29,468 nucleotides of DNA from a virus (IMGVR_UViG_3300005515_000045:1-29468); one strand, 5' to 3'; shown: positions 445 to 25,176, counted from the stretch's first letter. Numbers and translations: made by a program. The notes: generated by a model from the sequence alone, not told the origin.

Positions 445-452
445 TGACGAAA

Positions 453-483: not shown

Positions 484-515
484 CTCGTTTATCCGCACTA
501 ACGAAAGGAACCAGC

Positions 516-593
516 ATGGTCTGGAAGCTGCGGCATGACGACCTCCCAGTAGCTTGGGCACGGTTTGTCATCGCCATTACCTCATTACGCTGA
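516..593 (+). CDS. Candidate 25-residue peptide (leader peptide or small protein)
   Basis: ATG at 516 is preceded by AAAGGA at 504-509, a good ribosome binding site at a spacing of six bases. The frame encodes 25 residues beginning MVWKLRHDDL and ends at TGA 591-593. The peptide has basic and acidic residues first and a short hydrophobic stretch near its end. Directly after the stop come two hairpins (600-625 and 647-667), as expected for a short self-contained transcript. It overlaps the tail end of the minus-strand gene at 585-818. I do not recognise the peptide, and a frame this short can occur by chance; the ribosome binding site and hairpins are the only support. Confidence 0.3.
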   Translation: MVWKLRHDDLPVAWARFVIAITSLR

Positions 594-818
594 TTCCTCG
601 GGTGCACGGCTGGAACCGTGTGCCCGTGGTTCAGTGTATGCCTTGGTGCCCTCGCTCGTCGAGGGCATCGTTGCTTTTGAACCCTCCCGTGTCAGGGCTT
701 GTTTTGGAACGGCAAGCAGCATTACCGCGAGGTGCACGGCAGCCACGATGATCCCGAGCCACCCCGTGCCCGCGATGAGCACGACGTAGCCAGCAACGAT
801 GGCGATGGTCGACAGCAT
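585..818 (-). CDS. Small membrane protein at the end of the late operon
   Basis: This frame encodes 77 residues. The ATG overlaps the stop of the giant gene upstream (TGATG), so translation is probably coupled. Residues 1-38 are almost wholly hydrophobic (start MLSTIAIVAG) and would form one long or two short membrane segments. The remaining 39 residues are polar and low in complexity. I do not recognise a family. Its position after the virion genes would suit a small holin-like, superinfection-exclusion or other membrane protein, but a real holin candidate exists at 18768-19214. The polar tail overlaps the plus-strand ORF and hairpins at 516-678, so this segment may be under two constraints. 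The hydrophobic start and coupling support a real gene; the function is unknown. Confidence 0.6.
   Translation of the reverse strand: MLSTIAIVAGYVVLIAGTGWLGIIVAAVHLAVMLLAVPKQALTREGSKATMPSTSEGTKAYTEPRAHGSSRAPEESA
600..625 (+). other. RNA hairpin after the tiny ORF
   Basis: GGGTGCACGG (600-609) and CCGTGTGCCC (616-625) pair over ten bases around a six-base loop. Two of the pairs are G-U wobbles that exist only in a plus-strand RNA; on the minus strand they would be A-C mismatches. That asymmetry favours a plus-strand transcript. It lies six bases after the stop of the 25-codon ORF. Confidence 0.35.
647..678 (+). terminator. Possible intrinsic terminator, plus strand
   Basis: TGCCCTCG (647-654) and CGAGGGCA (660-667) form a perfect 8-base stem around a five-base loop. 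It is followed on the plus strand by TCGTTGCTTTT, a T-rich though interrupted tail. The minus strand has no such tail. It would end a transcript coming from the left. It lies inside the coding sequence of the small membrane protein at 585-818, so part of the signal may simply be coding sequence. Confidence 0.35.
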
Positions 819-3800: not shown

Positions 3801-6800
3801 TCGCTGGCCACCAGGTAGACCTTCCCCCCGTGATAGAAGCCGGCCGGGACTCCATCTGCGCCCTGCGACAGTTGCTGCGCGTCCAGGCGGACGATGGAGT
3901 CCGGCACCTGCGGGTCGTTGATGCTGTTGACCACCACAACTTCCGGCGGGTTCGCCCAGCGCGAAGTGATCATGTCCGCCAACTCGCGGACTTCCGACAC
4001 CCGAGCGCCACCAGCAGTTCCGCTGCGGCTCAGCGCCGGCGAATCCGGATCCGGTACACTGCCAGCGTCCCCCAGCGCAGGCTGATCGCCCAACGACTGA
4101 TCCCCGTCAGACGTGGCCTCAGAGATACCGCCGGGGGATTCGTCTTTCAGGACGAAGTGGTCGTAGAACCGGTGCCCGTCCTTCAGCTCGCGCACGATCA
4201 CGCCGACGCCCAGCGTCTCGTCGCCCACCTTCACCGCCGCCTCGTAGCGCTGCACCGACTTCACGTCCGGGCGGCCGAGCCGATCGGGCACCGTCTCCAC
4301 CAACGTTGCGCGCTCGAGCAACTGGCCGAGCGCAGCCAGCAACCTCACCTCGATCTCGTTGGCGTTCGACAGGGCGTGCTTCAGCCCGGCGCGCGTCACC
4401 TCGATGTCGGTGTCGCTGCTCGCGTTGTGGAAGGACTTGCCGGAGAACTCGCGCTCGCCGTAGGCCATCGCGCGTGCGCGAAGGATCGCCTTCGGCACCG
4501 CGCCGGCGATCTCGGAACCGGTCAGCGTGGCCACCGGATCGCGCCGGGTGCGGCTGAACATCGCGATGTGGCCCTCGTCCGACTCCTTCGTCTCGACGGT
4601 GCGGAAGAACTCGTCGAACGCGGCTCGCACGGCCGGCAGCTCTGCCTGGCCGGGGTATGGGTAGCTGGGCTCGTTCGAGCCGCCCAGGAACTCGGCCCGC
4701 GCGGCCTCGGTGATGCCCCACACCTCCTCGCTGACCACGTTGGCCAGGTAGTCGTTCGCGGCCTGCTGGTCCTGCAGCTTCGCGATGAGGTAGCTCTCGA
4801 ACGCGCGCGCGGACAGCTCGATCGGCGTGTTCCAGTAGGGCGTCGTGCGCCGCTTGTCGAGTTCCGCCGCGCGCCGGCGCAGCGTCGGCGCCTGCGTCGC
4901 GGTCGTCACCGCCTTGAAGGCCGCCGCCATCTGCGCGCGCAGGCTCGCGGCCTTGGCGCCGCCGGTGACGAATCCGCCCTCGCCGGACTGCTTCGCGAAG
5001 TAGTTGTCGACCGCGTGCCACCATTCGTGGCCGAGGCTGCCAGGCCCGCCGCCCTTCGTCAGGTTGATGACCACCTGCCCCGGCTCGTAGTGCGCCGCCG
5101 GCGCGTTCTTCCCGCCGCGTCCGCGCGCGCCGAAGGCAAGGCCGAGCTGCCCGTTCAGTGACAGAGCGCGCGGCGGCAGGTTCAGCACCGCGGCCATGTC
5201 CATCAGTGCGTCGAAGGCCTCGTTCAGGTCAGACTGCCGGCGGCCCTGCTCGACATAGTTGCCGAACTGCACGCCGCGAAACCCGAACGTCCTAGCGAAG
5301 ACCTCGGGCGTCATCGCCGCGCTGGAGCGATGGTCGTCACCGACGCGCGGCTGGTTGTCCTCACGACGTTCGTAGGGCGTTTCGCGGTACTTCGCGAGCG
5401 CCGTCTCCAGCTCGTCGAGGTGCTCGGTGAGGTATGCGCGCGCGGCCTTCACGTCGTCGAACTTCTTCAGGTCGATGTACTCGCGACCGATCTTCTTGCC
5501 GATGAAGGCGCCTGGCGTGCCCCGCTTCCCGTACAGCTCGAACTGCGGCTGGCCCTTCGCCTTGGCGCCGAGGTCCACTGTCGCCAGCTTCTCGCGGAAC
5601 TGCGCCAGCACCTCCTCGCGCGTGTTCCCGACCGCCAGCTCGCGCGGCCAGTGGCTGAAGGCGGTAGCCTTCGCCGCCTGCTCGATCACCCACTTCCTGA
5701 CGTTGCGCTCACCGCGATAGACCGCGAAGTGGTGCTCGGCGATCGTGACGCCCTTCAGCGACTTGCCGTGCCCGAACTCCTCGTAGAGCGCGGCGCGCCC
5801 CTCGAACTCGGTCTTCAGCCGCACGTTCACGTTGTTCGGCCATTCGACCAGCGTCTTGCCGGCCATCGCTGCCGCAGCCGCGTCGCGCAGCGCCTGCATT
5901 TCCTTCACCCAGCCGTCGAGCCGCCAGCTCACCTGCGGTTTGGTGCCCACCTGGTCGCGAGCGGCGCGGATCGCCGCAACGATCTTGGGCGAGGTGCCCG
6001 CGTCGAGCAGCTTCTGGTAGTCCGGCTCCGGCCAGGACTTCGACAGCGGCTCGGCGCGTGAGTCCACGGCAGCCGCCTCCTTGAGCAGCGCGGCGTAGTC
6101 CTTCCGCGCGCCGTGCAGCTTCTCGCCGAAGTCCTCGATCTTCGTGGGTGCCGGCGCCGCGCTCGGTGCAGGTGCGGCAGCCTCTTCCTTGACGGGCTTC
6201 GCCGGAGCGGTCCGGCGCTTCGTCACGGTCGACGCGGCAGCCACAGGCTGCGCCTCGGGTGCGGCGGCCGCTGCCGGCGCGCTCTCCACGACTGCCGCTG
6301 CAGGCGGCACGTCAGCAGCAGCGGCTGCCTCCTGCTTGCGCAGGCGCACCACGGCGGCCGTCGCACGTTGCATCGCCTGGGTGTCGCCGCTGTCCTTGAC
6401 GGCGTCCCAGTGCGCTTCGGCCTCGGCCAGCGTGGTCGGCTCCGCGGGCGAAGCGGGCGGCGCGGCCGACGGTGCCGCCTTGATCGGCCCGGCAATCGGC
6501 TTGGTCTTCGGGCCGTCCTTCACCCAGCTCCTGAACTCGTCGATCGGCATCTCGCTGATCGCGTGCAGACCCTTCCAGTCCTTCGCGTAGTTGGACTGGT
6601 AGATCTCGCGCGCCTGCTCGATCGAGCCCGCGCCGAGAACGACCTTGTGCTCGTCGAACTTCCCAGTGTCAGGGTGCACCTGGTCGACGATGAATACCCG
6701 CGTGCTGGCCGGGTCCGGCCCGACGAAGGTATCGACGTGGTCCTTGTCGTTGCCCACCGTGCCGCGGAAGTAGCCGTAGTGGTGCCGCAGCGTGTTCTCC

Positions 6801-9100
6801 CACGGCTTGCCATCGCGATCGACGCCGCGGCGCACCGAGCCCGCCGGGTTCTCGATCGAGATGTCGAGCCCATGCAGCGTGATGTGCCCCTTGCGGTAGT
6901 TCCCAGCCTCCTTCTGTGCCTGCGTCGGCTCGGGCAAGTCGTTGGTCGGCGAGGTGGCAGCTTCCTGCGCCTTCGCATGGATCGCCTCTGCGTCGACGGT
7001 CGGCGCGGCCGCCGGTGCCGGCGCTGCGGGCTCGACAGCCGCCTTGCGCACCACCCAGCCGCCTGTGACCTCCACCACCTCGCCGCCCTGCTTCTTGGCC
7101 ACCAGGTTCGCGGCCATCTTCGTCTTGAAGGCGTTCCCGCTCTTCGTCAGCACATCGTCCGGCCGGATCCCCGCAGCCGCGTGCTCGCGCTGGCGCTGCT
7201 GCGCGCTGGCCTCTTCGAAGCCATCGCTTCCCTCCGTGACGACACCGAAGCTGCCGTCCTCGAACTGGCGTGGCAGCGCCGGCGGTAGCCGTGCGCTCGC
7301 GGCACGCCGCTGTCGGCTGATGTAGTCGTGCGCCTCCTCCGCCAAGGAGAACGTTCCCTGGCGCGCGGGCTGCTCGGCCGGCTCTGCCGCAGTGGGCGAC
7401 GGTGCCGGTGCCGGTTCTGCGACTGCCGAAGCAGCGGGCGGCGCTGCCCTCAGGAGGTCTGGCTTCGGCGCAGCCGCAGTGGCCGGCGCCGCGGCCGGCG
7501 GCACGGTGTACTGCTCGCCGCGCGGCACGCCGGTGCCGAGAGAATCGCGCTCCTCCAGCGCGGCCTTGGTGCTGATCGCGTCCGCACGCATTTCCGGAAC
7601 GGCCCTGCCCTCGCTATCCACGCGGATCGTGCCGGTGGGCGAGGTGTCCAGCTCGATCGCGAGTGGTGCAGGCGCGCCTTCGAGGCGAGGCGCGCCCGCA
7701 GCGGCCCGCGTCGGCAGCTTCTGCTGGTTCGGGATCGGGCGGGCGTTCAGCGCCAGCATCGCCTCCTGAACGGCCTCGAGGTGCTTCTTCCGGACGCCTT
7801 CCGGGATCTTCGGATTGGTCGCCTGGTTGAGGCTGTTCAGGAGCTGGGTGGTGCCTTCGGTGCCGAAGCGTTCGCGCACCGCGGCCATCGTCTCCGGATC
7901 GCCCAGCGCCGTGCGCACGTCGTTGACCATCGTGCTGAAGATCGGCGTGCGCGCCGCGTCGTCATCGGCCTGCGCCTGCGCATCCGCTGCGGCCTGTTGC
8001 TCGGCCTGCTGCGTGCGCGCCTCCTCTTCCGGGTTCATCGGCGGCGGCACGCCGGCGTCGGCCATCGCCGCCTGCTGGTCGATCCCCGCGTTCGCCGCCC
8101 GCGACATCGGCCCGCTGTCGGGCAGCCGGTCGGCGCGGATGGCATCGCCGGGACGGTGGAGCACCTGCGCGCCAGCGCCCATCGCGCCGCCGGCCAGCAT
8201 GCCGAGCACGGCACCCTGCGCCACACCCTCGTCGAGCGGCTTGCCGAGCGCCGCGTTTTGGGCGACCTGCTCCTGCACGGACTGCGGCAGTTCCTCGAGG
8301 ATGCCTTCGGTGAAAGCACCTTCGAGCACGCGGCGCACCAGCGCCTTCTGCACGTCTGGCCCGGCGCCGCCGGCGAGCACGGTGTCGATGTCCTTGATCC
8401 CCAGCGCGCGCGCGACGCGCCCGCTCAGCCCGCCGAGCGCTCCGGTCAGTGCACCCGAGCCGGCCGCGAGCGCACTCTGCTGCGGCGTCAGCAGGCCGTC
8501 GCCCGTCTCCTGGCGGATCGCCTCGGCCTGCGAGCCGGCGGTCATCACGCCCTCGCCCGCCGCGCCAGCGGCCACAGCGCTCATGCGCGGCAGCGCGCGG
8601 CGCGCCAGCCCACCGAAAGCACCACCGCCGACCATCGAAGGTGCCGATTCGACGACCGAGTGCCAGATCGTCGACGGGTTGCGCATCACCGCGCCGGCGG
8701 TGTCGACGAAGCCCTTCGCGTTGGCGACCTCGGCATTCGCGGCCTGCTGCTCGGGCGAGTAGAGCTCGTCGAGCATCGCCTTCGCCTCCTTCGGCCGGAA
8801 GCCCACCTCCTCCGCCAGCTTGCCGGCGCGGCCGCCGGTGGCGAGGTCGGCGATGCCAACCGCGGCCTCGGGCACGGCGATGACGCCCTTGCCGAGCGAC
8901 ACCGCGGTATCACCCAGAACGCGGCGCGCCGTGCTGCTCGGTTCGACCTTCGGCGCCTTCTCCTTCACGCCCAGGCGCTGCGCGATCGCCTCGCGCGGCA
9001 TGTCGGCATAGAACGCCCCGTGCAGCACATCGACGACCTGGTCGTCGTCGAGCGGGGCGAGGTCGGGGTACTGCTGGCGGACTTCAGCGATGGTCGTCAT
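818..9100 (-). CDS. Giant polyvalent phage protein (PLxRFG / LPD family)
   Basis: A 2,760-residue protein, probably packaged in the virion and delivered with the DNA. Modules seen in order are: an N-terminal block (1-50) common in such proteins; a glycine- and alanine-rich, partly hydrophobic region (about 145-330); an inorganic-pyrophosphatase-like polyvalent domain (about 733-860, with NDKDHVDTFVGP); and a GARKD motif near 1000 as in LPD-type domains. Then come an LPD1/metallopeptidase-like domain with HEWWH at 1358-1362, an LPD3/nuclease-like region (about 1553-1657), a second zincin-like motif HEGLGH at 1780-1785 and PLMRFG at 2114-2119. The C-terminal part (about 2290-2575) holds hydrophobic stretches. 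Proline- and alanine-rich linkers separate the modules. Known relatives such as P1 DarB protect incoming DNA or act on host targets. The start is the ATG three bases after the preceding stop. The domain names are recalled from motifs; the peptidase and nuclease activities are unproven. Confidence 0.85.
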   Translation of the reverse strand: MTTIAEVRQQYPDLAPLDDDQVVDVLHGAFYADMPREAIAQRLGVKEKAPKVEPSSTARRVLGDTAVSLGKGVIAVPEAAVGIADLATGGRAGKLAEEVGFRPKEAKAMLDELYSPEQQAANAEVANAKGFVDTAGAVMRNPSTIWHSVVESAPSMVGGGAFGGLARRALPRMSAVAAGAAGEGVMTAGSQAEAIRQETGDGLLTPQQSALAAGSGALTGALGGLSGRVARALGIKDIDTVLAGGAGPDVQKALVRRVLEGAFTEGILEELPQSVQEQVAQNAALGKPLDEGVAQGAVLGMLAGGAMGAGAQVLHRPGDAIRADRLPDSGPMSRAANAGIDQQAAMADAGVPPPMNPEEEARTQQAEQQAAADAQAQADDDAARTPIFSTMVNDVRTALGDPETMAAVRERFGTEGTTQLLNSLNQATNPKIPEGVRKKHLEAVQEAMLALNARPIPNQQKLPTRAAAGAPRLEGAPAPLAIELDTSPTGTIRVDSEGRAVPEMRADAISTKAALEERDSLGTGVPRGEQYTVPPAAAPATAAAPKPDLLRAAPPAASAVAEPAPAPSPTAAEPAEQPARQGTFSLAEEAHDYISRQRRAASARLPPALPRQFEDGSFGVVTEGSDGFEEASAQQRQREHAAAGIRPDDVLTKSGNAFKTKMAANLVAKKQGGEVVEVTGGWVVRKAAVEPAAPAPAAAPTVDAEAIHAKAQEAATSPTNDLPEPTQAQKEAGNYRKGHITLHGLDISIENPAGSVRRGVDRDGKPWENTLRHHYGYFRGTVGNDKDHVDTFVGPDPASTRVFIVDQVHPDTGKFDEHKVVLGAGSIEQAREIYQSNYAKDWKGLHAISEMPIDEFRSWVKDGPKTKPIAGPIKAAPSAAPPASPAEPTTLAEAEAHWDAVKDSGDTQAMQRATAAVVRLRKQEAAAAADVPPAAAVVESAPAAAAAPEAQPVAAASTVTKRRTAPAKPVKEEAAAPAPSAAPAPTKIEDFGEKLHGARKDYAALLKEAAAVDSRAEPLSKSWPEPDYQKLLDAGTSPKIVAAIRAARDQVGTKPQVSWRLDGWVKEMQALRDAAAAAMAGKTLVEWPNNVNVRLKTEFEGRAALYEEFGHGKSLKGVTIAEHHFAVYRGERNVRKWVIEQAAKATAFSHWPRELAVGNTREEVLAQFREKLATVDLGAKAKGQPQFELYGKRGTPGAFIGKKIGREYIDLKKFDDVKAARAYLTEHLDELETALAKYRETPYERREDNQPRVGDDHRSSAAMTPEVFARTFGFRGVQFGNYVEQGRRQSDLNEAFDALMDMAAVLNLPPRALSLNGQLGLAFGARGRGGKNAPAAHYEPGQVVINLTKGGGPGSLGHEWWHAVDNYFAKQSGEGGFVTGGAKAASLRAQMAAAFKAVTTATQAPTLRRRAAELDKRRTTPYWNTPIELSARAFESYLIAKLQDQQAANDYLANVVSEEVWGITEAARAEFLGGSNEPSYPYPGQAELPAVRAAFDEFFRTVETKESDEGHIAMFSRTRRDPVATLTGSEIAGAVPKAILRARAMAYGEREFSGKSFHNASSDTDIEVTRAGLKHALSNANEIEVRLLAALGQLLERATLVETVPDRLGRPDVKSVQRYEAAVKVGDETLGVGVIVRELKDGHRFYDHFVLKDESPGGISEATSDGDQSLGDQPALGDAGSVPDPDSPALSRSGTAGGARVSEVRELADMITSRWANPPEVVVVNSINDPQVPDSIVRLDAQQLSQGADGVPAGFYHGGKVYLVASELDGDSDVVKVLFHEGLGHYGLRGAFGQTLGTILDRLAILNAGKVRAKAREYGLDYDNLTDRRAAAEEVLADMAQTHPELGFVKRVVAAIRTWLREHVPKFKNKEFSDDEIIRSFILPARAFVQSARPSDRAFADTEPMAMFSRASTAAQNLFLDATTGHGTVNWWQRSVGTQYHKAQQNPATFGKVFNALQDYIKDISVYANAAADKAPTLLQKLDSWRDLKRSRAAAVDVAAAGKAIFEGTLNDKKVYARAELTGRFGLTDKQVELYGEFRGAVDQSLDDMAKSELVRLVGEQGSVLAGQAMSSSLDEAAEMLADHMEAIGDERTAGAIKAKAAQVAKLQEEGYAPLMRFGQHTLHITRDGETEYFAMFESRLAANRAARQLRDDPAFQGAEITHGLMSEQAHKLFSALPLDSLELFAHVTGNTDDQVYQDFLKLTKSNRSAMKRMIHRQGVAGYSEDVTRVLASFLTSNARLAAGNLHLGAAKQAAQAIPKEQGDLKDEAVRLVEYVQNPQEEASALRGLLFTNFIGGSVASAAVNLTQPLTMTLPYLSQFGGAVKAGARLLAAAKVAATGRADGELADALRRAEADGIVSPQEIHHLQAEAMGRLGNNPLLKKAAFIWGSLFSLSEQFNRRVSFIAAYRTALAENIADPDKFAEKAVIETQGLYNKGNKANWGRGAIGATAMTFKQFSTHYLEFLTRMYKSGPEGKRAVAVALAMLLLAGGAGGLPFADDLDDLVDTLAQALGYDFNSKVAKRKFIAETLGLGSVAGEVATRGLSSLPGMPIDVSLRMGMGNLLPGTGLLLRSNTDRSSDVLELAGAAGGLAKNAIEGGQKVLQGDVLAGVGTVVPVAIQNLVKATTMWQTGEYRNTKGQKVMDVDAVDAVMKGIGFQPAEVARESARMQQVQRSVALAKNVESEIAGAWAQAQADGDAEGVQKARKQLATWNEDNPGTPIRITGAQIVKRVRDLKASRADRAVKSAPKELRGMVRETLG

Positions 9101-11839: not shown

Positions 11840-12379
11840 TCAGATGAGCTTGGCGTACAGCCGCTCGACGGCGGTGTAGCCAAGGTGCTCGAACAGGCGG
11901 CCCTGATCGAGGTTCTTGTGCAACTTGACCGCGGTGAAGCGCTTCATGCGGCGGTAGCCGCGATCGAGCGCCACCTGCTTCAGCTCGCGATCAACGGCCT
12001 GGAACAGGCGCAGTCCCGTCCGACCAACGCGGTACTCTGGCGCAACGAAGTACACGTCGGTGATGCCGTGCAGCGTGCTGCGGTAGTGCAGGTGCGTTGA
12101 CACGATGGCCACGTGGTAGCCGATCAGCACGCCGCCACGGCGCGCCGTCACGATGTGCAGCGCACCGGCCTCATCCAGGTCGGAGTACTTCTGCTCGTCT
12201 ATGTCGAGCGGCACGTCGTCGTGGTTGAGCGCGACCTCGCGCCAGTGGCGCACGAGCATCGGGATCATCTCGCCGCGGATGTCGCGCCACCGCTCGACCG
12301 CATAGGTGGTGCCGGTGGGCTTCTTCGGGATGCCCAGCCACTCCGTCTGGACGTAGGGCCCGCAGGCGACGCCGATCAT
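11840..12379 (-). CDS. GNAT-family N-acetyltransferase
   Basis: This frame encodes 179 residues, starting at ATG 12379, which overlaps the oxygenase stop (ATGA). The acetyl-CoA-binding motif A is seen at about 107-130 (DVYFVAPEYRVGRTG, with R-V-G-R-T-G taking the place of the R/Q-x-x-G-x-G/A loop). A motif-B-like end follows at 163-175 (LFEHLGYTAVERLY). Residues 30-80 give the usual N-terminal helices and first strands. The length suits a single GNAT domain. Such enzymes move an acetyl group to an amine on proteins or small molecules; the substrate cannot be told from sequence. It is one gene from the internal virion proteins and coupled to an Asp/Asn-hydroxylase-like gene, so modification of virion or host proteins is a reasonable inference. 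Confidence 0.8.
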   Translation of the reverse strand: MIGVACGPYVQTEWLGIPKKPTGTTYAVERWRDIRGEMIPMLVRHWREVALNHDDVPLDIDEQKYSDLDEAGALHIVTARRGGVLIGYHVAIVSTHLHYRSTLHGITDVYFVAPEYRVGRTGLRLFQAVDRELKQVALDRGYRRMKRFTAVKLHKNLDQGRLFEHLGYTAVERLYAKLI

Positions 12380-12945
12380 TGGGCGGTCCTGATGTCGACG
12401 ATCATGTGGATCCGATCGCCTGGGCTGTTGTTCACCACCTCGTGCTCGATCGCGTTCTGGAACCACCAGACCGAGCCCTGCGGCATGTACACGTGCTCGT
12501 CGCCGCAGCGGAAGTCGACGCCGGGGTAGCTTTCCAGCACCACATGGAAGCGATCCCAATAGTTCGCGTGGACCCGCCTGTCGGCGTGCGGGAAGACGCG
12601 CCCGCCGGGCGCGATCTTGTTGACCATCACCCGGCCCAGCCGCTCGCCGCCGACGTAGTTCATCAGGCTCATGACCAGCGGCCGCGCCTCGGTCAGCAGC
12701 TTGTACGGCGGGTAGTCGATGCACTCGTGCTGGTCGTAGCGGCTGGTGTGGTCCTTCAGCGCCTCTTCCGTCTCGTGCACGGTCTTCACCGGGAACCGAA
12801 GCATGATCGTTTCGACCTCGCCGAACGGCCCCTGCGGGTAGTCGCGCAGGTAGGTGTCCTCTTTCCAGAGGTCGGGGCGGCGCTTGATCGCCAGCAGGAG
12901 CGGCATCACGTCGACGCCGTCGTTCGTCTTGAGGAAGTTCTTCAC
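12376..12945 (-). CDS. Aspartyl/asparaginyl beta-hydroxylase-like oxygenase
   Basis: This frame encodes 189 residues with a GTG start at 12945, preceded by GGAG at a spacing of six. It fits the Fe(II)/2-oxoglutarate dioxygenases of the Asp/Asn beta-hydroxylase family: H120-x-D122 (FPHADRR) and H168 (IEHEVVNNSP) would hold the iron, and R178 ten residues later would bind 2-oxoglutarate. The stretch MPQGSVWWFQNAIEHEV is typical of the family. Known members hydroxylate Asp or Asn side chains, but phage members are mostly uncharacterised. The gene starts a new coupled block: the 56-base gap before it carries one copy of the repeated 12-base element (12989-13000). Its partner downstream is a GNAT enzyme. 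Targets could be tail proteins made from the same message, or a host factor; neither is shown. Confidence 0.82.
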   Translation of the reverse strand: MKNFLKTNDGVDVMPLLLAIKRRPDLWKEDTYLRDYPQGPFGEVETIMLRFPVKTVHETEEALKDHTSRYDQHECIDYPPYKLLTEARPLVMSLMNYVGGERLGRVMVNKIAPGGRVFPHADRRVHANYWDRFHVVLESYPGVDFRCGDEHVYMPQGSVWWFQNAIEHEVVNNSPGDRIHMIVDIRTAQ

Positions 12946-16844: not shown

Positions 16845-17690
16845 ATGGAAGCTGATCCAACCACCCCTGAGCAGGTTTTGACATGCTTGGCGCGTTCCGG
16901 TTACCTCTTGGAATCTCAACTTGTTACGTCACTTGTCGAAGAAGGATACTTTGTTGAACCGAATCAGGTCATCAAAGATCCGAGGACAGGAAAGTCGCGC
17001 GAGATTGACTTGGTAGCGGAGCACTATTCCAAACGAATTGGGCCCTCTGACAGGGTTTGCGTAAAAACACACTTCGTGGCAGAAATAATAAACAATCGAT
17101 ACCCGGTCGTACTTATGACGGAACGACCAATGTCGCCAAACGAAGACTTCGAAAATTGGGTCAAGTATGCGGTCACGCCAATTGATAACTCGTTCGAAAC
17201 GTCCTTCAATATATACGACGATCGCACCCCACCAAGAGCGTATTTATTCTCGCAGTACTGCGGACTCACGAAGAAGAACAGGAACGATGAGCTAATGGCG
17301 TCACACCCCGACGACATGTATTCATCCTTACTTAAACTGGCGGAATTCACAGAGTCCGAACGCAACTCCTTTGTTTCGATGGCGTCAGAACTAAGCGACT
17401 CTACGTGGAGGATCTTCTTTTGGCACCCCATGCTTGTCTTGGGAGGACAACTCATGATGACCACGAAAGACGAAAGTGGAAATCCAATAGTTGTGGAGAT
17501 AGAGACGGCAGCCTTGGAATTCAATTGGCACGAGGGCGAAACTAGACGCTCAACACTAATTGAATTCATTACCGCGGCTGCTTTTCAAAGTCGCCTCGAT
17601 CAGATTATTCTGGCTGACGCGGAGTGGGAAACGAGGCTAGCAGCCATGCGCCGAGAGGCCTTCGCCGCTGACCCCATGGAATACAAGTAG
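16845..17690 (+). CDS. Moron gene: restriction-endonuclease-like protein, possibly a defence gene
   Basis: This frame encodes 281 residues and is the only sizeable plus-strand gene. GGAGGAG lies six bases before ATG 16845. Its codons are much less GC-rich than those of all neighbours, with many A/T-ending codons, so it was probably acquired separately. The N-terminal half resembles PD-(D/E)XK nuclease-like proteins: a helical start with GYLLESQLV, then GKSREIDLVAE (candidate acidic residue in EID), then VAEIINNRYPVV. In relatives as I recall them this last motif reads E-C-K-N-N; here it is E-I-I-N-N, so the expected lysine is isoleucine. The C-terminal half has further strands (RIFFWHPMLVLGGQL). 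Transcription against the late operon and foreign composition are typical of morons expressed in lysogens. Defence against other phages is an inference. Confidence 0.75.
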   Translation: MEADPTTPEQVLTCLARSGYLLESQLVTSLVEEGYFVEPNQVIKDPRTGKSREIDLVAEHYSKRIGPSDRVCVKTHFVAEIINNRYPVVLMTERPMSPNEDFENWVKYAVTPIDNSFETSFNIYDDRTPPRAYLFSQYCGLTKKNRNDELMASHPDDMYSSLLKLAEFTESERNSFVSMASELSDSTWRIFFWHPMLVLGGQLMMTTKDESGNPIVVEIETAALEFNWHEGETRRSTLIEFITAAAFQSRLDQIILADAEWETRLAAMRREAFAADPMEYK

Positions 17691-17741: not shown

Positions 17742-18041
17742 GCGTTTGCCAGACTCACTGCCCAACGCGGGCGGCTCCACCTGCCGGCCATCCTTCAAGC
17801 AATGCTCGGACGCCGGCAGCGTGATCTTCAGCAGCTCGAGCAAGTTCGACCTGTACTCGCAGACCATCGACCAGTAGGTTCCCGATGGAGGCGGCTCGGC
17901 CACGGCAGGCGGCTCCGGTATCGTCGGTGGCGGCACTGCCACCGGCCGCGTAGTCGGCGGCTGCGACGCGCAACTGGTCAAGCTCAGTGCGAAAGCCAGC
18001 AGCAGTGCGCTGGTTCGTGGTGCGTTCGTTCTGGAGGTCAT
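17733..18041 (-). CDS. Outer-membrane spanin lipoprotein (Rz1-like)
   Basis: This frame encodes 102 residues from ATG 18041, with AAGG seven bases before it. The N-terminus is a lipoprotein signal: basic start, hydrophobic core (SALLLAFALS) and lipobox LTSC at 21-24, so Cys24 would carry the lipid. A proline-rich stretch (about 29-52) follows, usual in outer spanins, and then a short helical part with two more cysteines. It is read in a different frame from the inner spanin gene and lies almost wholly inside it, running 22 bases past its end. Together the two would link inner and outer membranes and fuse them in the last step of lysis of a Gram-negative host. Confidence 0.85.
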   Translation of the reverse strand: MTSRTNAPRTSALLLAFALSLTSCASQPPTTRPVAVPPPTIPEPPAVAEPPPSGTYWSMVCEYRSNLLELLKITLPASEHCLKDGRQVEPPALGSESGKRLR

Positions 18042-18285
18042 GGTCCGCCTTCCGGATGACAGTGGTCATTGCCGCTTCGAGGTCGCGATAGCCCTGCGTG
18101 AGGACGAGGGCGCCATGCTCGGCATCCGCCCGCTCCGTTGCGACCTGGCCCTGCAGTTTCAGCAGCGCGACCTCCGCATGGTTCAGCTTGTCAGCGAGGA
18201 CCAAGACGCAGGCGAACAGGCCCGCGCTCAACGCCAGCGCGGCATACAGGCCCCAGGGACGGGTGACGGTACTGATGATTCCCAA
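17755..18285 (-). CDS. Inner-membrane spanin (Rz-like, DUF2514-like)
   Basis: This frame encodes 176 residues. I place the start at TTG 18285, one base after the endolysin stop and seven bases after AGGGAG, because the next in-frame ATG lies beyond the membrane segment. Residues about 11-31 (WGLYAALALSAGLFACVLVL) form a single N-terminal membrane anchor. The rest is a long charged helix (about 35-115) likely to be a periplasmic coiled coil, followed by a glycine- and alanine-rich break and a second helix. This is the classical build of an inner spanin. The outer spanin gene is nested in another frame. The non-ATG start may keep its level low relative to the endolysin. Confidence 0.8.
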   Translation of the reverse strand: MGIISTVTRPWGLYAALALSAGLFACVLVLADKLNHAEVALLKLQGQVATERADAEHGALVLTQGYRDLEAAMTTVIRKADHDLQNERTTNQRTAAGFRTELDQLRVAAADYAAGGSAATDDTGAACRGRAASIGNLLVDGLRVQVELARAAEDHAAGVRALLEGWPAGGAARVGQ

Positions 18286-18286
18286 G

Positions 18287-18766
18287 TCAGCTCTCCCTGG
18301 TGCCCATGGCGACCGACATTGGGGGCAGCGGCGCGGCCGCGGGCAGTGCGTAGCCCACCGGCCAGCGGTACCCGCGCGCGCGGGCGCGATCGAAGGTCGC
18401 GAGGCCAACGGCGTCGCTCTGGTTGCCGCCGAGGCCAACGATGTTCCCGCCCGCGTCGCGCGCAACGACGAAGAACACGTGGTCGCCACCGGGGCGGCTG
18501 ATGACGGCGATGCACCCGACCTCCGGGTGATCGAGCTTCACGCCCCACTTCAGGTAGCTGGCCGCGCCCTCGAAGCGGCTGGACACGATGCCGGCGCGCT
18601 CCAGGCAAGCGCCGACGAATGCAGCGCACCAGGGCGTCTCGTCGTCCTTGATCCCGCCGCGCCGGATCTCACGCCAGAAGGACAGGATCTCGGCCGCGTG
18701 CGCAGGCCCCTTGATCTCGCGCAGGCCCACATGCTTGCGGGCTTCGGTGAGCCACGGCGCTTCCAT
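18287..18766 (-). CDS. Endolysin, NlpC/P60- or CHAP-like peptidase (TIGR02594-like)
   Basis: This frame encodes 159 residues from ATG 18766, one base after the holin stop; a longer GTG start at 18790 would add eight mostly basic residues and is less likely. The sequence resembles the TIGR02594 group of cysteine peptidases: an N-terminal helix with LTEARKHVGLREIKGPAH, then DDETPWCAAFVGACLERAGI with probable nucleophile Cys47, then GDHVFFVV with His96 and GLGGNQSDAV with Asn115 or Gln116 as the third residue. It would cut peptide cross-links of the peptidoglycan. No signal peptide is seen, so it needs the holin to leave the cytoplasm. The neighbours, holin before and spanins after, make a complete lysis set. 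Confidence 0.85.
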   Translation of the reverse strand: MEAPWLTEARKHVGLREIKGPAHAAEILSFWREIRRGGIKDDETPWCAAFVGACLERAGIVSSRFEGAASYLKWGVKLDHPEVGCIAVISRPGGDHVFFVVARDAGGNIVGLGGNQSDAVGLATFDRARARGYRWPVGYALPAAAPLPPMSVAMGTRES

Positions 18767-18767
18767 G

Positions 18768-19214
18768 TCACGCCTGCGGCGGCAGTGCACCCTTCGCCTC
18801 CTGGACGATCTGGCCGATGTCCAGGTTCTCGCGACGGGTGAAATACCGCATCACCGCCGCAACGATCCAGAAGCCCAGCACCGCGCTGACGGCGATGAAC
18901 GGCGTCGAGGCCGCGAGGTAGATCCACAGGATGTGCTCGCCGGCCAGGATCGCCTGCCACGGCGCCATCAGCTCGGGGAACCACTGCAGCACCTTGAAGG
19001 CGGCGAGCGGCCCGAGGGTGAAGCTGCACAGCAGCCCCGCGCCGAGCCGGCGCACCGCGTCGATGTGTTCCTTGCCGGGGGTCAGCGGCACGATGGTGAA
19101 TCCGACCAGGATGGCCAACAGCGAGACGCCGGCCGCGATGACTGCGGCGAAGAGGCCCGACTTCAGGCCGGCCGCGAGGCCAAAGGTGGTTTCGGTGGGC
19201 ATCGTGTTCCTCAT
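18768..19214 (-). CDS. Holin-like membrane protein
   Basis: This frame encodes 148 residues from ATG 19214, with GAGG five bases upstream. A second ATG at 19202, five codons in as MRNTMPTETT shows, has GAGGA inside the first codons, so two starts with different N-termini are possible, recalling the holin/antiholin dual starts of other phages. Hydrophobic segments at about 17-45, 55-78 and 92-124 give three membrane spans. The charged C-terminal tail (about 126-148) would be cytoplasmic or periplasmic. The gene lies directly before the endolysin with one base between the stop and the next ATG. It opens an uncoupled block: copy 3 of the repeated 12-base element lies 31 bases before its start. 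I recognise no specific holin family. Confidence 0.7.
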   Translation of the reverse strand: MRNTMPTETTFGLAAGLKSGLFAAVIAAGVSLLAILVGFTIVPLTPGKEHIDAVRRLGAGLLCSFTLGPLAAFKVLQWFPELMAPWQAILAGEHILWIYLAASTPFIAVSAVLGFWIVAAVMRYFTRRENLDIGQIVQEAKGALPPQA

Positions 19215-19258: not shown

Positions 19259-20200
19259 TCAGCCGACCATCCAGCACCAGGCAGGCTGCGGCGCTGGCGC
19301 GTCCGACACATCGGTCACGGTCACGGTGATGGTCTGCGTGTCGATCGCGGTGCCGTCGCTGACCTGCACGATGACGACGTACTGGTTGTTGCCGTCGGCG
19401 TCGGCCGGGATCTCGAAGTCCGGCGGCGTCAGGAACGCCAGCACGCCGGTGCTGCTGTCGATGCTGAACTTCGCTGCGTCGGCACCACCGCTGATCGAGT
19501 AGGTCAGCGTGTTTCCATCCACGTCGGTAGCGGTCACCGTGGTGACGGCAGTCACGTTCTCCGGGACGCTGATGGCCGCCGTTGCACCGCCACCGTTGCT
19601 GGTGATGATGGGTGCGCTATTGCCACCTCCGCCACCCACGATGTCCGCGTTGCCGAACAGCGTGAACGACTCCATGCCGCTGCCCGAGAAGCCACCGGTG
19701 CCGGCCCCGGCCAGCGGCGCCGCATCGTTGCCGCTCGCACGCACGGTGCCCTCGATCAGCAGCTCCACCGTGCTGCCGGTGCGCCGCAGGCCCACGTTGC
19801 GCGGCGTGCCCACCGGGCTGTACGCGGCGCCACCGCGGAAGATCTCCGTCTGCACGCCGTTCGTGTAGCGGTAGCAGATGTATTCCCCCACGCCGCCGTG
19901 GAAGAACAGGAAGTACATCGTCGCGTTGGTGGCGGCCTTGTCGACCTGGTAGAGCAGCGCCTGGTAGGCGGCGTCCATCAGGCCCTGCGACGTGTAGGCG
20001 TTGCTGCTCAGCGTCACGTCGACCACGGCCATCGCGCCGAGGCCCGCGTTGTTGTCGGTGATCGCGCCGTTGCCATCCAGGCCGTAGAAGCCGCTCGCGC
20101 CCCAGGCCGGCCGGACGTAGCTCTGCCCCTGGTCGGTCTGGTGCGACGTGATCGGCGTGTTGACCGCGCCGGCGAACGAGTCGGTGATGTTGACTGCCAC
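19259..20200 (-). CDS. Cadherin-like virion protein
   Basis: This frame encodes 313 residues from GTG 20200, with AGGAG six bases before it (overlapping the TAG stop of the spike gene). Residues about 1-190 are beta-rich with motifs like GVGEYICYRYTNGV and STVELLIEGTVRASG, resembling a concanavalin/LamG-type jelly roll. A glycine-rich hinge (GGGGGN) leads to a cadherin-like domain at about 193-300: PENVTAVTTVTATDVDGNTL, then FSIDSSTGVL and VVIVQVSDG. In known cadherin-type repeats the D-x-D and PEN motifs bind calcium between strands. It follows the phosphoesterase spike and is likely a tail appendage or decoration protein that binds a surface sugar or protein. The exact position in the particle is unknown. 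Confidence 0.7.
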   Translation of the reverse strand: MAVNITDSFAGAVNTPITSHQTDQGQSYVRPAWGASGFYGLDGNGAITDNNAGLGAMAVVDVTLSSNAYTSQGLMDAAYQALLYQVDKAATNATMYFLFFHGGVGEYICYRYTNGVQTEIFRGGAAYSPVGTPRNVGLRRTGSTVELLIEGTVRASGNDAAPLAGAGTGGFSGSGMESFTLFGNADIVGGGGGNSAPIITSNGGGATAAISVPENVTAVTTVTATDVDGNTLTYSISGGADAAKFSIDSSTGVLAFLTPPDFEIPADADGNNQYVVIVQVSDGTAIDTQTITVTVTDVSDAPAPQPAWCWMVG

Positions 20201-20209
20201 GCTGCGCTC

Positions 20210-23200
20210 CTATCGGGTGAACTGGTCCATGACCGTGCCGTCCTGCTTGATGGCCTTGGTCGTGATGACGTTGCCCGTCACCGAGACGCGCATGTAGTGA
20301 TACGGCGCGAGGCCGACGGCCATCAGCGGCTCGGTGCGGATGAAGTCGTTGCCTGGCGAGCCGCCACCGCCGGTCGTGTAGTAGACGACCCCGTTGGCGT
20401 CGTCCCGAACGCCGTTCGGATTGCCCACCGTCGCCTTGATCGGGTAGCTGCGCTCGTAGACGTGGTTGTGGCCCGAGAAAACGGCTTTGACCTTCCCGTA
20501 GTTCGAGAAGGTGTAGCGCAACGTGGGCCAGCTCGCGACGGCCGGGTGCTCCGACCGCGTGACGACAGGCGCGTGGGTGAAGACGAAGATGTTCTGCACG
20601 CCGCTGTCGGCCTGCGCGGCGGTCAGCACGTAGTTCAGCCAGTCGAGCTGGTGCTTGTAGAAGTAGTGGTCGTAGTTGTTCAGCGCGCCGTCGCACGTGT
20701 TGCAGGTCATCACGTCGTGGTTGTCGTCGTTGAGCCGCATGATGACGAACTGGCTGTTCTTGAACTTGAACGTGTAGTACATGAACGTGTCGTAGACCGC
20801 CGGGCTGGTGGTCGAGCACGCCAGGTTGTAGAACTCGGCGTCGGTGTAGTGCGGCACGCGGGTCGTCTGGTCGAGGAAGTAGCTCATCCGCGTGTGGTTC
20901 TGGATGCCCAGCGCCGCGATGTCGAAGACCGAGCACACGCCCTCACCGTAGGGATCCGGATACCACCCGCTGCCCCAGCCGGCATCGTGGTTGCCGATCA
21001 CCGGAAAGAAGAAGGTCGGCAGGCCCGCAGCCGGCGTCTTGCTCTTCAGCGGGGCGATCATCTGCGCGAGCGAGCCGCGGTCAGAGTCGCCCGGGCAGCC
21101 GCCGCGCTGCGTCCAGTTGGTCGTGTTGTAGAGCCCGGCGATCATGTCGCCCACGTGGATCACGAACGAGGCCGGCTCGACGACCATCTGCTGCACCAGA
21201 CCCGCGTGCACGGTGTTCCCGCCGCAGACGTTGCCGGCCCGGCTGTCGCCGTAGACCACAAAGTCGAAATCGAACCCGGTGGCCGGTGCGTCGACGGTCG
21301 TGAAGGTCCACGTCCGCGTGCCGCTCAGTCCGTTGCCCGCCACGTCTGTGATGAGCGTCGAGAGAGTGACCGTGTAGGTGGTCGCATAGGCGAGCGACGT
21401 GCTCGGCGTGAACACCGCCGTCGCGCCGTCGCACGAGATCGAGCCGGTCACGCCCCCCGAGAGTCCGAACGTGCCCGTCGTCACCGTGGCGCAATCCATC
21501 GCCTCGGAGAAGTTCGCCGTCACGCTCGAGCCGACAGCCACGAACGTGGCGCCCGGACCGGGGCTGGCCGTGAAGACAGTCGGCGAGACGGTGTCGACGA
21601 GGGCAGTCCGCGTGAACTCGTAGGCGCCGATCTCGTTCTTCGGACCCTGCGGGCGAGTCACCCACTTGAAGTCCTTCGTCACCGATGCGGTGTTGAAGCC
21701 GGTGTTGATCGCGGGGCTGTCGGGCGCCAACGTGAGCGGCGTGTTGCCCACGAACGTCTCGAACTTGGGATCGAGCACGCGGCTGTTGTCGGTGTGCCCG
21801 GTCAGCTCCTCGTACTCGACGAACCAATTCGCGGCGGACACCGGCGAGAACTCGCTGTTCGGGTGGAACTTCGGCGCGCCGTCGACCGTCCAGTACAGGT
21901 TGTCGTGGATGTTCAGCGTCCCGAAGTCGTCGAAGGCGTCCGCCGTCATCTTCACCAGCGGCAGGTTGACGCTGCCATAGACGATGTTGTTGGCCACCTC
22001 CACGGTGTCGCTGGCCTGGCCGACGATCGACTCGTTCGAGAAGAACAGCGACCCGTGCTGCACCCGACCGGTGTCGTAGCAGGTGTTGTTCAACACCTTG
22101 ATGTTCTGCGCGGACGACACCGCGGCGCAGGCGCGATCGGTGTGCAGCACCACGTTGTTGCGCATGATGCCGTCGTAGGCCTCGTACTCGCCGTCGAGCA
22201 GCAGCTCTTCGTCCGTCTCCTGCCCCATCATCATGGCGTGGTCGCCGATGTTGACGATCAGGTTGTTCTCGAAGATGGCGTTGCGGCAGTTGCCCTTGCA
22301 GTACATGCCGATCGAGGTGATGTCGTGCACGTAGTTCCCGGCGATGCGGATGCGGTCGGTCCCGACGCTGTCCACGCCCTGCGCGTTCTCGCTGATCGGC
22401 GTGATGCCGGCGTCTTGCCAGATCTCGTTGTCGATGACTTCGGCGTCGTTCGCCGTGCGGACCAGCTTGACCACATCGGCGAAGGAGCAGCACAGCCGGT
22501 TGCCCTGCAGGCGCACCTTCGGCGTGTCGATCTTTACGACGTTGCCGTCGCCCCCGCCAGTCGCGCTGCCGCGGATCTCCAGCCCGCTGACGGTCCAGTA
22601 CATGGCCGTGCAGTCGGTGTTTCCGCTCTCCTCCCTGTCGACCATGTCTTCACAGGCCTGCGTGTAGAAGTAGAGTGTCGGCCCGGTGCCGGTGCCGCGC
22701 ACGATCGGGCGCTCGCCGTTGTAGCCGCGCATGGTGATGCGCGCGGTCGACGTGCCCGGCCGGCTGATGAGCAGGGACTCGTTGTAGGTGCCGGCGCGGA
22801 TCTCGATGGTGTCGCCGGGGCTCACCAGGTTCTTCGCGAAGGTGATGGTCTGGAACGGCGTGTTCACCGTCAGACCGTTGTTCGAGTTGCTGCCGTTGTT
22901 CGCGACGAAGTAGGTCTTGCCCAGCGCCTCGAACTCCGGCGCGCCGATGTCGCGGATGACGCCGACCCGCGGGTGCCCCTGATAGGCGATTCGCGTCGCG
23001 CGCGACGGGTCGCCGGTGTTGATGACCGGCGACCCTTGGTTGACGGCCATCGACCACCGCGTGGCCTTGGTCGGCTCGGCGAGCAACAGCGGCGCGGCCG
23101 CGGTGCCGTGCTCGTCGCGGCTGATCGATCGGGCGGCGGTGATGTCCGCCACGTCCTGCTTCCACTTCGCGGTGCCACCATTGCGGTGGCAGAGGTTGTA

Positions 23201-24484
23201 GTCGATCGCGGCGATGTCCCCGTAGGTCAGCCCGGCGTCGTCGAAGCACTGTGCCGCCGCATTGCTGCCGGCCAGCTCGATCAGGTTGGAGCTGATGCCG
23301 TGGTTCACGCCCTGTGTGATCTGGATGCCCTTGCTGCCCGCGGTGCCGGCGGCCAGGTAGATCGAGTTGTTGCGCACCCAAATGGCATCGCTGACCAGGT
23401 CGCCGGTGCCCGGCGCCTTGCCCGGCGCGCGGATCGCCACGAAGTCATCCGCGGCCGCGTTTGAGCCGAGCTGGCTGTTGCGCACGACGACATTGTTGTC
23501 GATGTAGCAGCCCTGGCAGCTCGATGCGGCGATGCCGATGCCGCCGACGTTGCCAAGGGTGTTGCTGCGGATCGTCGCTGCCACGAAGCCTTCGATGCCG
23601 GCGCCGCTCGCGAATCCGTCCTCGAGGCTGATGCCCCAGCAGGCGGCCGTGGGGTCCGTCTCGGTGATCTCGTTGTCCACGATGGTCAGGCCCTTGTGGC
23701 GTCCGTTCGCCACGATGACCGGCGTCGCGCAGCGGCCGCCCGCGAGGTTGCCGGTGCGGGAGAATTCGTTGTGCTGCACCACGACACCCTGCGTGCCGTT
23801 GCCGCCGAACGCGCCGACCAGGCGCAGTGCGTGCTTCGTCGTGCAGCTCCCCGGGCTCGACGTGCAGTAGGCCGACGCGTTGTTGTCGAACCGGTTGTTC
23901 TCGATCCGCGCCGCGCACCCTGCGACGGCGCCCTCGCCGTTGTCGGCGATGCGCGAGTTCTTCAGGGCGACCGTCGTGCCAGAGCTGCAGGCGAAGCCGC
24001 TGGTGGCGAAACCGGTGAGGGTCACGCGGTCGACGGTCACGCCGTTCGCGGCCGTGCTGATGCCGCTCTGCCCGGTGCCGCCGCCCACGATGCTGACGTT
24101 CCGGACCGTGTAGCCGGTGCCGCTGGACAGGGTCAGCGCCGTCTGACCGGCGCGCGCCTCGCGCAGGATCGGCTTCTTCAGCCGGCACCCCTCCTTGCAG
24201 GTCTTCGGCGCGTAGGCGTCGATCGTGATGCCGCTGGTCAGTGCGGTCGCGACATCCGACCAGGCGCCGCCGGTGCAGGCCAGCAGCACGCGCGCCGAGC
24301 CGCCTGTGGCGGTGAGGCTCGCGGCCAGCGTGCGCTTCGGCGCGAGGTCCGAGAGGCCATCGTTGGCGTCGTTGCCGGCGGCGCACTTGTTGTCGGAGCC
24401 AGCCGCGCACTCGCAGGCGTAGATGGTCGCGCCCCATGCGGGCGCGGCGATGGCCAGGAACAGGGCGAGCAGGAGCTTCTTCAT
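20210..24484 (-). CDS. Spike-like protein: signal peptide, two beta-helices, Ig-like domain and metallophosphoesterase
   Basis: This frame encodes 1,424 residues from ATG 24484 (ATGA overlap with the upstream stop). Residues 1-19 look like a Sec signal peptide (MKKLLLALFLAIAAPAWGA), odd for a virion protein. Residues about 20-510 form a right-handed beta-helix with a DUF1565-like start (GNDANDGLSDLAPKRTL) and many cysteines. A second beta-helix starts near 524 (YFVANNGSNSNNGL). A Big_5/SbsA-like Ig domain occupies about 965-1065. The C-terminal part (about 1070-1424) is a calcineurin-like phosphoesterase close to purple acid phosphatases: D1080 in YGDSRAG, D1113 in HVGDM, G1164-NHD, H1304 in FTHAP and GHNHVYER at 1338-1345. 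The metal ligands appear complete. It may remove phosphate or cut phosphodiesters on the host surface. A lysogenic-conversion protein secreted from the cell is an alternative. Confidence 0.82.
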   Translation of the reverse strand: MKKLLLALFLAIAAPAWGATIYACECAAGSDNKCAAGNDANDGLSDLAPKRTLAASLTATGGSARVLLACTGGAWSDVATALTSGITIDAYAPKTCKEGCRLKKPILREARAGQTALTLSSGTGYTVRNVSIVGGGTGQSGISTAANGVTVDRVTLTGFATSGFACSSGTTVALKNSRIADNGEGAVAGCAARIENNRFDNNASAYCTSSPGSCTTKHALRLVGAFGGNGTQGVVVQHNEFSRTGNLAGGRCATPVIVANGRHKGLTIVDNEITETDPTAACWGISLEDGFASGAGIEGFVAATIRSNTLGNVGGIGIAASSCQGCYIDNNVVVRNSQLGSNAAADDFVAIRAPGKAPGTGDLVSDAIWVRNNSIYLAAGTAGSKGIQITQGVNHGISSNLIELAGSNAAAQCFDDAGLTYGDIAAIDYNLCHRNGGTAKWKQDVADITAARSISRDEHGTAAAPLLLAEPTKATRWSMAVNQGSPVINTGDPSRATRIAYQGHPRVGVIRDIGAPEFEALGKTYFVANNGSNSNNGLTVNTPFQTITFAKNLVSPGDTIEIRAGTYNESLLISRPGTSTARITMRGYNGERPIVRGTGTGPTLYFYTQACEDMVDREESGNTDCTAMYWTVSGLEIRGSATGGGDGNVVKIDTPKVRLQGNRLCCSFADVVKLVRTANDAEVIDNEIWQDAGITPISENAQGVDSVGTDRIRIAGNYVHDITSIGMYCKGNCRNAIFENNLIVNIGDHAMMMGQETDEELLLDGEYEAYDGIMRNNVVLHTDRACAAVSSAQNIKVLNNTCYDTGRVQHGSLFFSNESIVGQASDTVEVANNIVYGSVNLPLVKMTADAFDDFGTLNIHDNLYWTVDGAPKFHPNSEFSPVSAANWFVEYEELTGHTDNSRVLDPKFETFVGNTPLTLAPDSPAINTGFNTASVTKDFKWVTRPQGPKNEIGAYEFTRTALVDTVSPTVFTASPGPGATFVAVGSSVTANFSEAMDCATVTTGTFGLSGGVTGSISCDGATAVFTPSTSLAYATTYTVTLSTLITDVAGNGLSGTRTWTFTTVDAPATGFDFDFVVYGDSRAGNVCGGNTVHAGLVQQMVVEPASFVIHVGDMIAGLYNTTNWTQRGGCPGDSDRGSLAQMIAPLKSKTPAAGLPTFFFPVIGNHDAGWGSGWYPDPYGEGVCSVFDIAALGIQNHTRMSYFLDQTTRVPHYTDAEFYNLACSTTSPAVYDTFMYYTFKFKNSQFVIMRLNDDNHDVMTCNTCDGALNNYDHYFYKHQLDWLNYVLTAAQADSGVQNIFVFTHAPVVTRSEHPAVASWPTLRYTFSNYGKVKAVFSGHNHVYERSYPIKATVGNPNGVRDDANGVVYYTTGGGGSPGNDFIRTEPLMAVGLAPYHYMRVSVTGNVITTKAIKQDGTVMDQFTR

Positions 24485-25176
24485 GTGGCGGTCGCAGTGA
24501 CTTCGTAGGAGGTCCAGCCTTCGCCCACGCCGTTGGTGGCGCTGATGGCGAAGTAGCGGGCGCCGGCAGGCAGGCCCGTCACTAGGCGGCTGGTCGAGTT
24601 GGCGGCGAGAGCGATGGCGGTGGTGCCCGTGCCGCCCGGCTGCTGCTGGCCGGCTGTGCTGCCGTGGTACAGCGTCAGCGAGGTCAGCCCGCCCAGCGGC
24701 GTGCCGTCGGCGGCCGATTCCGGCAGCACCCAGGTCACGAGCACCTGGCCAGCGGCCTGCGGCACAGCGCCCACGTCGGTAGGCGCCGAGGGAACCGCGG
24801 TGGCGGCCGCCGTCTGCACCTGGACACTGCGGCTGACCGCGACCACGTCCTCACCGAAGCCAGTTGTGGCCGTCTCGGTGATGGTCAGGTGCCGCCCGGC
24901 GTCACCGGGGACCGGCGTGTACGTCGGCCCGATCTCGTCGGGGATGCCCACGCCGTCGATCGCGAAGAGCGGCAGCACGGTGATCGGATCGCCCGCGCTG
25001 TAGACGCCGCCGATGTAGCCGATCGGCACGCCCACCTGCGCCGTCAGCGCCGTCAGGCTCGGCGGAGAGACGAGAGCCGGCCCGACCTCGGCCGGCGGCG
25101 TGCTGATCGCCACGAACGCGGGCATCCACCGGCGCAGGCTCAGGCCGACCATCGGACCGGTGTGCAGCGCGCTCAT
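24481..25176 (-). CDS. FN3-like tail protein
   Basis: This frame encodes 231 residues. ATG 25176 overlaps the upstream stop, and its own stop overlaps the spike start (ATGA at both ends). The N-terminal part (start MSALHTGPMV) is followed by an Ig-like stretch at about 45-120 with PIGYIGGVYSAGD and DAGRHLTITETATTG. A C-terminal fibronectin type III-like domain covers about 133-231: PSAPTDVGAVPQAAGQVLVTW at its start and LVTGLPAGARYFAISATNGVG near the end. Such domains bind sugars weakly or act as spacers in phage tails. Placed just before the spike, it may be a connector for it or a small fibre. It has no catalytic motif. Confidence 0.65.
   Translation of the reverse strand: MSALHTGPMVGLSLRRWMPAFVAISTPPAEVGPALVSPPSLTALTAQVGVPIGYIGGVYSAGDPITVLPLFAIDGVGIPDEIGPTYTPVPGDAGRHLTITETATTGFGEDVVAVSRSVQVQTAAATAVPSAPTDVGAVPQAAGQVLVTWVLPESAADGTPLGGLTSLTLYHGSTAGQQQPGGTGTTAIALAANSTSRLVTGLPAGARYFAISATNGVGEGWTSYEVTATAT

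Follow-up and report, generated by a model that had tools for sequence, protein, structure and literature searches.

The window, as we call the whole stretch of DNA analysed here, is a 29,468-bp virus record from IMG/VR (IMGVR_UViG_3300005515_000045). One gene on its minus strand (20210..24484) encodes P0001, a 1424-amino acid (aa) protein in which a putative Sec signal peptide is followed by beta-helix, choice-of-anchor-Q, Big_5 and metallophosphoesterase (MPE) domains. Judged by these features, P0001 is probably a Sec-exported, late-expressed phosphoesterase that acts on the cell envelope or matrix, and not a conventional tail spike. An initial annotation had described a spike-like virion protein, which is not supported, given the lack of a tail-attachment domain, the modules typical of bacterial secreted proteins and the paired cysteines. 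Its idea that the product is exported agrees with the predicted features.

Predicted signal peptide and domain make-up of P0001

The gene is a single open reading frame (ORF) running from 24484 to 20210, and both this interval and every residue number in the initial annotation are correct. Read on the plus strand, the interval has a stop inside it; an overlapping plus-strand ORF of 1415 aa is a by-product of high GC, and the domain matches fall in the minus frame. The ATG of P0001 overlaps the stop codon of the upstream gene (ATGA, 24484..24481), which supports a start at the signal-peptide-like residues. With a codon distance of 0.056 and a GC content at third codon positions (GC3) of 0.94, the gene resembles others of the same phage, which rules out a recent import.

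N-terminal hydropathy peaks at 3.05 in P0001, as against 2.05 or less in 16 other window genes, and by hydropathy and c-region heuristics residues 1–19 (24428..24484; this and all following features of P0001 are on the minus strand) fit a Sec signal peptide in having n, h and c regions as well as an AxA-type site, with probable cleavage between about MKKLLLALFLAIAAPAWG and A. Together with a separate signal peptide in the homologue P0003 (see below), the hydropathy peak upholds the earlier signal peptide call. P0001 contains 32 cysteines (2.25%), an even number in every domain (16, 8, 2 and 6), compared with 27 in the 6891 residues of the 16 other window genes together (0.39%). In the part shared with P0003, 14 of 16 P0001 cysteines align with cysteines of P0003, and the unmatched ones form close pairs (729 and 733 in P0001; 910 and 919 in P0003). 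Gain or loss in pairs is expected of cysteines that form disulfides outside the cytoplasm, and cysteines of this type lend the signal peptide independent support. We infer that P0001 leaves the cytoplasm via Sec.

Searches of P0001 against Pfam, NCBIfam and the PDB agree on beta-helix, choice-of-anchor-Q, Big_5 and MPE domains, well above chance. The first beta-helix module (residues 20–520; 22925..24427), which holds 16 cysteines and is absent from P0003, contains the best of three stretches matched by Pfam Beta_helix (3.5e-12; residues 112–208). It closes with a choice-of-anchor-Q-like end at about residues 485–518 (SPVINTGD...DIGAPEF; 22931..23032), placed from the sequence and from its weak similarity, in BLAST, to the second copy. 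The second beta-helix module (residues 521–917; 21734..22924) has a DUF1565-like start at residue 530 (Pfam, 0.0034, below cut-off) and corresponds by homology to the N-terminus of mature P0003. It is followed by a choice-of-anchor-Q domain (residues 918–957; 21614..21733), for which NCBIfam choice_anch_Q (NF041518) scored 55.1 bits against a cut-off of 25 (6.4e-15, two stretches in P0001), and by a Big_5 Ig-like domain (residues 964–1063; 21296..21595; PF13205, 4e-22). The two beta-helix regions and the Ig-like domain proposed earlier are thus confirmed by Beta_helix, the DUF1565-like start and Big_5. The chain ends with the MPE domain (residues 1070–1424; 20213..21277), in which Pfam Metallophos (PF00149) covers residues 1104–1343 (7.4e-7; 30.2 bits vs. 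a gathering score of 21.5).

An AlphaFold2 (AF2) model built from 15 aligned sequences was moderate overall, with a mean predicted local distance difference test score (pLDDT) of 56, reaching mostly 60–86 in helix 2 (model residues 140–350) and often 70–86 in the core blocks of the MPE. Residues 1–533 modeled alone, as a single sequence, gave a poor result (pLDDT 38), so helix 1 is assigned from sequence only. Helix 1 is not a recent duplicate of helix 2, as their BLASTP similarity was not significant.

The body of P0001 includes a tailspike-type beta-helix (Pfam Beta_helix), and its viral Foldseek matches include tailspikes at about 1e-3. No N-terminal virion-attachment or head-binding domain was matched, the helix module following the signal peptide at once, and no C-terminal sorting or anchor signal was found with NCBIfam. 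In one bacterial phylum, 50 of 198 genomes have a choice_anch_Q match above the cut-off of the model. The domain make-up of P0001, with choice_anch_Q, Big_5 and an MPE of secreted type, is, as predicted from these matches, that of bacterial surface proteins.

The metallophosphoesterase domain

With a D, D, N-H, H, H-x-H ligand set and a PF00149 match above gathering, the C-terminal domain qualifies as a calcineurin-like MPE. Its ligands (D1080, D1113, N1165, H1166, H1304, H1339 and H1341) occupy positions that are invariant in an alignment of 15 phage MPE domains, comprising P0001, P0003 and 13 other phage proteins. The metal-binding motifs listed in the initial annotation, including GNHD at 1164–1167 and GHNH at 1338–1341, are therefore present, with one exception to the expected set: the seventh ligand of purple acid phosphatases (PAPs), the tyrosine of GDxxY, is replaced by Ala1116.

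In Foldseek searches of the PDB, PAPs ranked first, followed by PhoD, GpdQ and SMPDL3 among others; the best matches were to kidney-bean PAP (4dhl, 2.4e-11) and rat PAP (1qhw, TMt 0.63). A profile of the 15 phage MPEs likewise retrieves PAPs at 1.7e-27. P0001 shares with the kidney-bean and rat enzymes the fold, GNH, the motif IV histidine and GHxHxYER, so that PAP motifs III–V are present. It differs from them in its attached beta-helices, in the missing GDxxY tyrosine (GDMIA in P0001, GDMVT in P0003) and in motif I, where DxG gives way to DSR (GDSR in both phage proteins). The PAP-like head proposed earlier thus holds for fold and motifs III–V; strict PAP membership does not.

The GDxxY tyrosine is kept in 11 of the 13 other phage MPEs. 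In a midpoint-rooted tree with long branches, P0001 and P0003 join bacterial MPEs, most of them Tyr-less (99/97), and are separate from those 13. Secreted Tyr-less MPEs of bacteria share with P0001 motifs of the forms GD[ST]R and GD[LM]. One such bacterial protein, L104 (381 aa), aligns with the MPE end to end (hhalign 98%) and has the Tyr-less motifs GDTR and GDLVAK and a signal-peptide-like start; unlike P0001, it is encoded on a bacterial chromosome and its length leaves no space for beta-helices. A match in Ignavibacteria (L007) was a fragment, uninformative, and was set aside.

Phage genes of PAP type are already known: the role of such genes, including gp26 of Microbacterium phage Rowlf, is stated as unknown (PMC12352085). 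Rowlf gp26, which lies outside our alignment, and L035, L056, L067 and L082 share a PAP-type MPE with P0001; unlike P0001, the genes aligned here mostly keep the tyrosine (11/13, as above) and for the most part have neither a signal peptide nor a beta-helix. Eight phage proteins of about 500–650 aa with a PAP-type MPE (L035, L047, L055, L056, L061, L074, L083 and L089) have an N-terminal part of 200–300 residues that lacks a signal peptide and looks neck- or adaptor-like by eye, with no PHROG match among those scanned. A 1762-aa tail-like protein (L082:2208-7493) also has a PAP-type MPE inside it, and a 1223-aa protein (L039:5866-9534) ends with one; these two are apparently virion-carried phosphatases.

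A relative and the Bcep22-like setting

The searches for relatives of P0001 gave one true relative. P0003 (937 aa) is encoded on a 63-kb, podovirus-like IMG/VR contig (IMGVR_UViG_3300016484_000766; L002/G001) and is 55% identical to residues 511–1424 of P0001 over about 910 aa. The two share the order helix, choice_anch_Q (28.5 bits for NF041518 in P0003), Big_5 and MPE, a signal peptide, the missing tyrosine and a homologous gene upstream; P0003 differs in lacking helix 1 and in lying after portal and head genes. Because the P0003 signal peptide (predicted cut between AANA and VTYY) directly precedes a beta-helix equivalent to helix 2, helix 1 of P0001 is an extra module. After P0003 come genes for an exported-looking protein of 96 aa and a fibre-like one of 693 aa. 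The former (G001:C1 43945-44235, minus strand; L010:3945-4235) has a signal peptide, overlaps the end of P0003 and matched nothing in Pfam or PHROG; it is possibly a partner of the exported enzyme.

P0003 was found only through a DNA motif scan for GHNHVYER, and a scan for FPVIGNHD gave no third member, leaving a single relative, for these patterns, among 2.9 million viral contigs. Viral and genome collections were also scanned for close relatives of the MPE, of the whole protein and of helix 1, and gave no match. In tblastn against 50,697 phage records, helix 1 and the MPE were unmatched and helix 2 had only a weak match, in MT837514; no annotated isolate carrying a P0001-like protein was found among the phage records searched. 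A common MPE among relatives was rejected, since none of 80 loci of the phrog_511 group carries it while positive controls matched. A 969-aa viral protein in BFVD (UniProt A0A8S5VQE9) aligned over 943 columns to the helix-to-MPE model (6e-6, low TM) and is possibly a distant protein with the same domain order as that part.

Among the neighbours of P0001 are matches to the C-terminus of a major head protein, to the structural proteins phrog_399, phrog_437 and phrog_511, to a 2760-aa DarB-like protein and, just below cut-off, to a gp77-type fibre-tail adaptor. The capsid fragment shares about 54% identity with its counterparts in Burkholderia phages BcepMigl, JC1 and DC1, and the gene order parallels that of BcepMigl. 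With the major capsid protein, phrog_399/437/511 and the giant DarB-like protein all present and syntenic, the window is thus a Bcep22-like (Lessievirus-related) podovirus assembly module. The P0003 contig encodes the same phrog_399/437/511 proteins, and by gene content the two phages are both Bcep22-like.

P0001 lies between adaptor and fibre genes and lysis genes. The overlapping upstream gene encodes a 231-aa Ig/fn3-like protein (24481..25176, minus strand), and its homologue directly upstream of P0003 is 33% identical over 90 aa (3e-11; phmmer 3.9e-11); a two-gene unit is thus conserved between two phages of the group, near fibre and lysis genes in each, and its position in the module differs. 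Downstream, on the same strand, are a probable fibre protein of 313 aa without a signal peptide (19259..20200; Pfam Cadherin, 1.9e-9) and the lysis genes (17755..18790), namely a CHAP endolysin (18287-18790) and then a spanin-like ORF, the latter read from the sequence. On the opposite strand, a 281-aa gene (16845-17690, plus strand; 49% GC, GC3 0.56, vs. 68% GC for the phage; no Pfam match) is a recent insertion, possibly a moron. Two small genes in the virion module (11840-12945, minus strand) look acetyltransferase-like and hydroxylase-like by eye; in BcepMigl an acyl-CoA N-acyltransferase lies among virion genes.

Across the 80 phrog_511-group loci, most long genes in the region corresponding to P0001 lack a signal peptide. 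In BcepMigl the region holds gp27, annotated with 'pectin lyase activity'; gp27 and other beta-helix tailspikes share with P0001 the helix implied by annotation and the same part of the structural module, and differ in having neither signal peptide nor MPE. L147 (IMGVR_UViG_3300032257_000013), a related podophage, encodes in its fibre/lysis region a 1285-aa signal-peptide protein (277-4131) with LamG and a C-terminal SGNH hydrolase, and right after it an exported-looking 280-aa protein (4131-4970). The domains of the 1285-aa protein are unrelated to those of P0001, although it too combines a signal peptide, a carbohydrate-binding-type domain and a C-terminal hydrolase. A 408-aa protein that looks exported is encoded in the structural module of L124, another relative (5656-6879); it has no Pfam match, and some of its stretches resemble a ricin-type lectin by eye. 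The region thus tolerates plain spikes and exported proteins alike, and these few cases suggest that exported proteins of the Bcep22-like fibre/lysis region form a class.

Secreted enzyme, spike or phosphatase for the host

If P0001 is a secreted phosphoesterase, it would be read late, coupled to the virion-type Ig-like gene, exported from the cytoplasm by Sec as its signal peptide implies, folded with disulfides in the periplasm as its paired cysteines imply, and set free there or on lysis. Its beta-helix modules would probably bind or cut a surface glycan, and the Tyr-less, PAP-fold MPE would probably remove phosphate from, or cut phosphodiesters in, a phosphorylated polymer of the envelope or matrix. 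Beta-helix domains of phages and bacteria usually deal with polysaccharides. For this reason, and because the Bcep22-like phage JC1 requires the inner core of lipopolysaccharide (LPS) (PMC9144972), we favor a phosphorylated LPS core or surface polymer as the substrate. In a concrete, speculative version, dephosphorylation of the LPS core, as the receptor of Bcep22-like phages, would let progeny avoid debris and already infected cells.

Several points weigh against this reading. The gene stands in place of the BcepMigl 'pectin lyase activity' protein and follows a conserved gene of virion type, a position that would suit a spike. The call of a signal peptide draws on hydropathy only, and the bacterial MPEs in the tree come from one phylum and were fetched with the P0001/P0003 family as query. 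Passage of a product of such size across the outer membrane before lysis is hard to explain, the speculative receptor version draws on analogy with a different phage, and substrate, activity and localisation are all predictions from sequence.

A virion spike, either cytoplasmic with an uncleaved start or exported and docked on particles via the upstream Ig-like protein in the course of lysis or afterwards, would use the MPE to trim phosphorylated LPS or capsule and so aid adsorption. The gp27-like position, the adjacent virion-type partner kept in both phages, the beta-helix architecture and the PAP-type MPEs without signal peptides on virion-like proteins elsewhere (L035, L056, L082 and L039) all fit such a spike. 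We nevertheless consider it unlikely, in view of the signal peptide, the disulfide-type cysteines, the missing attachment domain and the lack of a signal peptide in gp27; moreover, the cytoplasm is where tailed phages are normally assembled. Similarly doubtful is a phosphate-scavenging auxiliary metabolic gene or lysogenic-conversion moron, whose exported phosphatase would free phosphate or alter the lysogen surface on behalf of the host. Exported phosphatases are typical phosphate-acquisition enzymes, and genes for a PAPS reductase and an acyltransferase lie amid the virion genes of BcepMigl. The Bcep22-like JC1 establishes stable lysogens and carries metabolic morons (PMC9144972). In contrast, no promoter of its own was seen for the P0001 gene, which sits within a run of virion and lysis genes, so that poor expression would be expected in a lysogen; no integrase was found in the 29-kb fragment, and the 63-kb P0003 contig showed no more than a sub-threshold piece of one; and beta-helix modules would be superfluous for plain scavenging. 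Finally, a decayed or chimeric, non-functional import could account for the rarity of the protein and the loss of one PAP ligand. This is very improbable, since the 1424-codon frame is intact, the remaining metal ligands are invariant, identity to P0003 is 55% and codon usage is fully adapted.

The preferred reading, a secreted phosphoesterase, might be extended to a class of Sec-exported, disulfide-bonded, glycan-binding hydrolases carried by Bcep22-like podophages in their fibre/lysis region, which would remodel or destroy the receptor or the matrix late in infection and so act as receptor-destroying enzymes in free form, with P0001 (beta-helix and phosphoesterase) and the L147 protein (LamG and SGNH hydrolase) as members; this extension is tentative and rather unlikely.

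No phage protein combining a beta-helix, a phosphoesterase and a signal peptide was found in the open-access literature. The combination is new in a phage, and its individual parts are already known. Pantoea stewartii WceF is an exported beta-helix enzyme resembling a tailspike (PMC7949094); unlike P0001, it is bacterial, has a Tat signal and is a glycosidase without an MPE. Phage enzymes bearing signal peptides are known among endolysins (PMC6116005). If our reading of P0001 is true, some tailed phages would export enzymes that act on phosphorylated surface polymers, unlike enzymes borne on the particle, and the PAP-like genes of phages would gain a candidate function. A beta-helix protein encoded in a phage structural module, then, need not be a tailspike.

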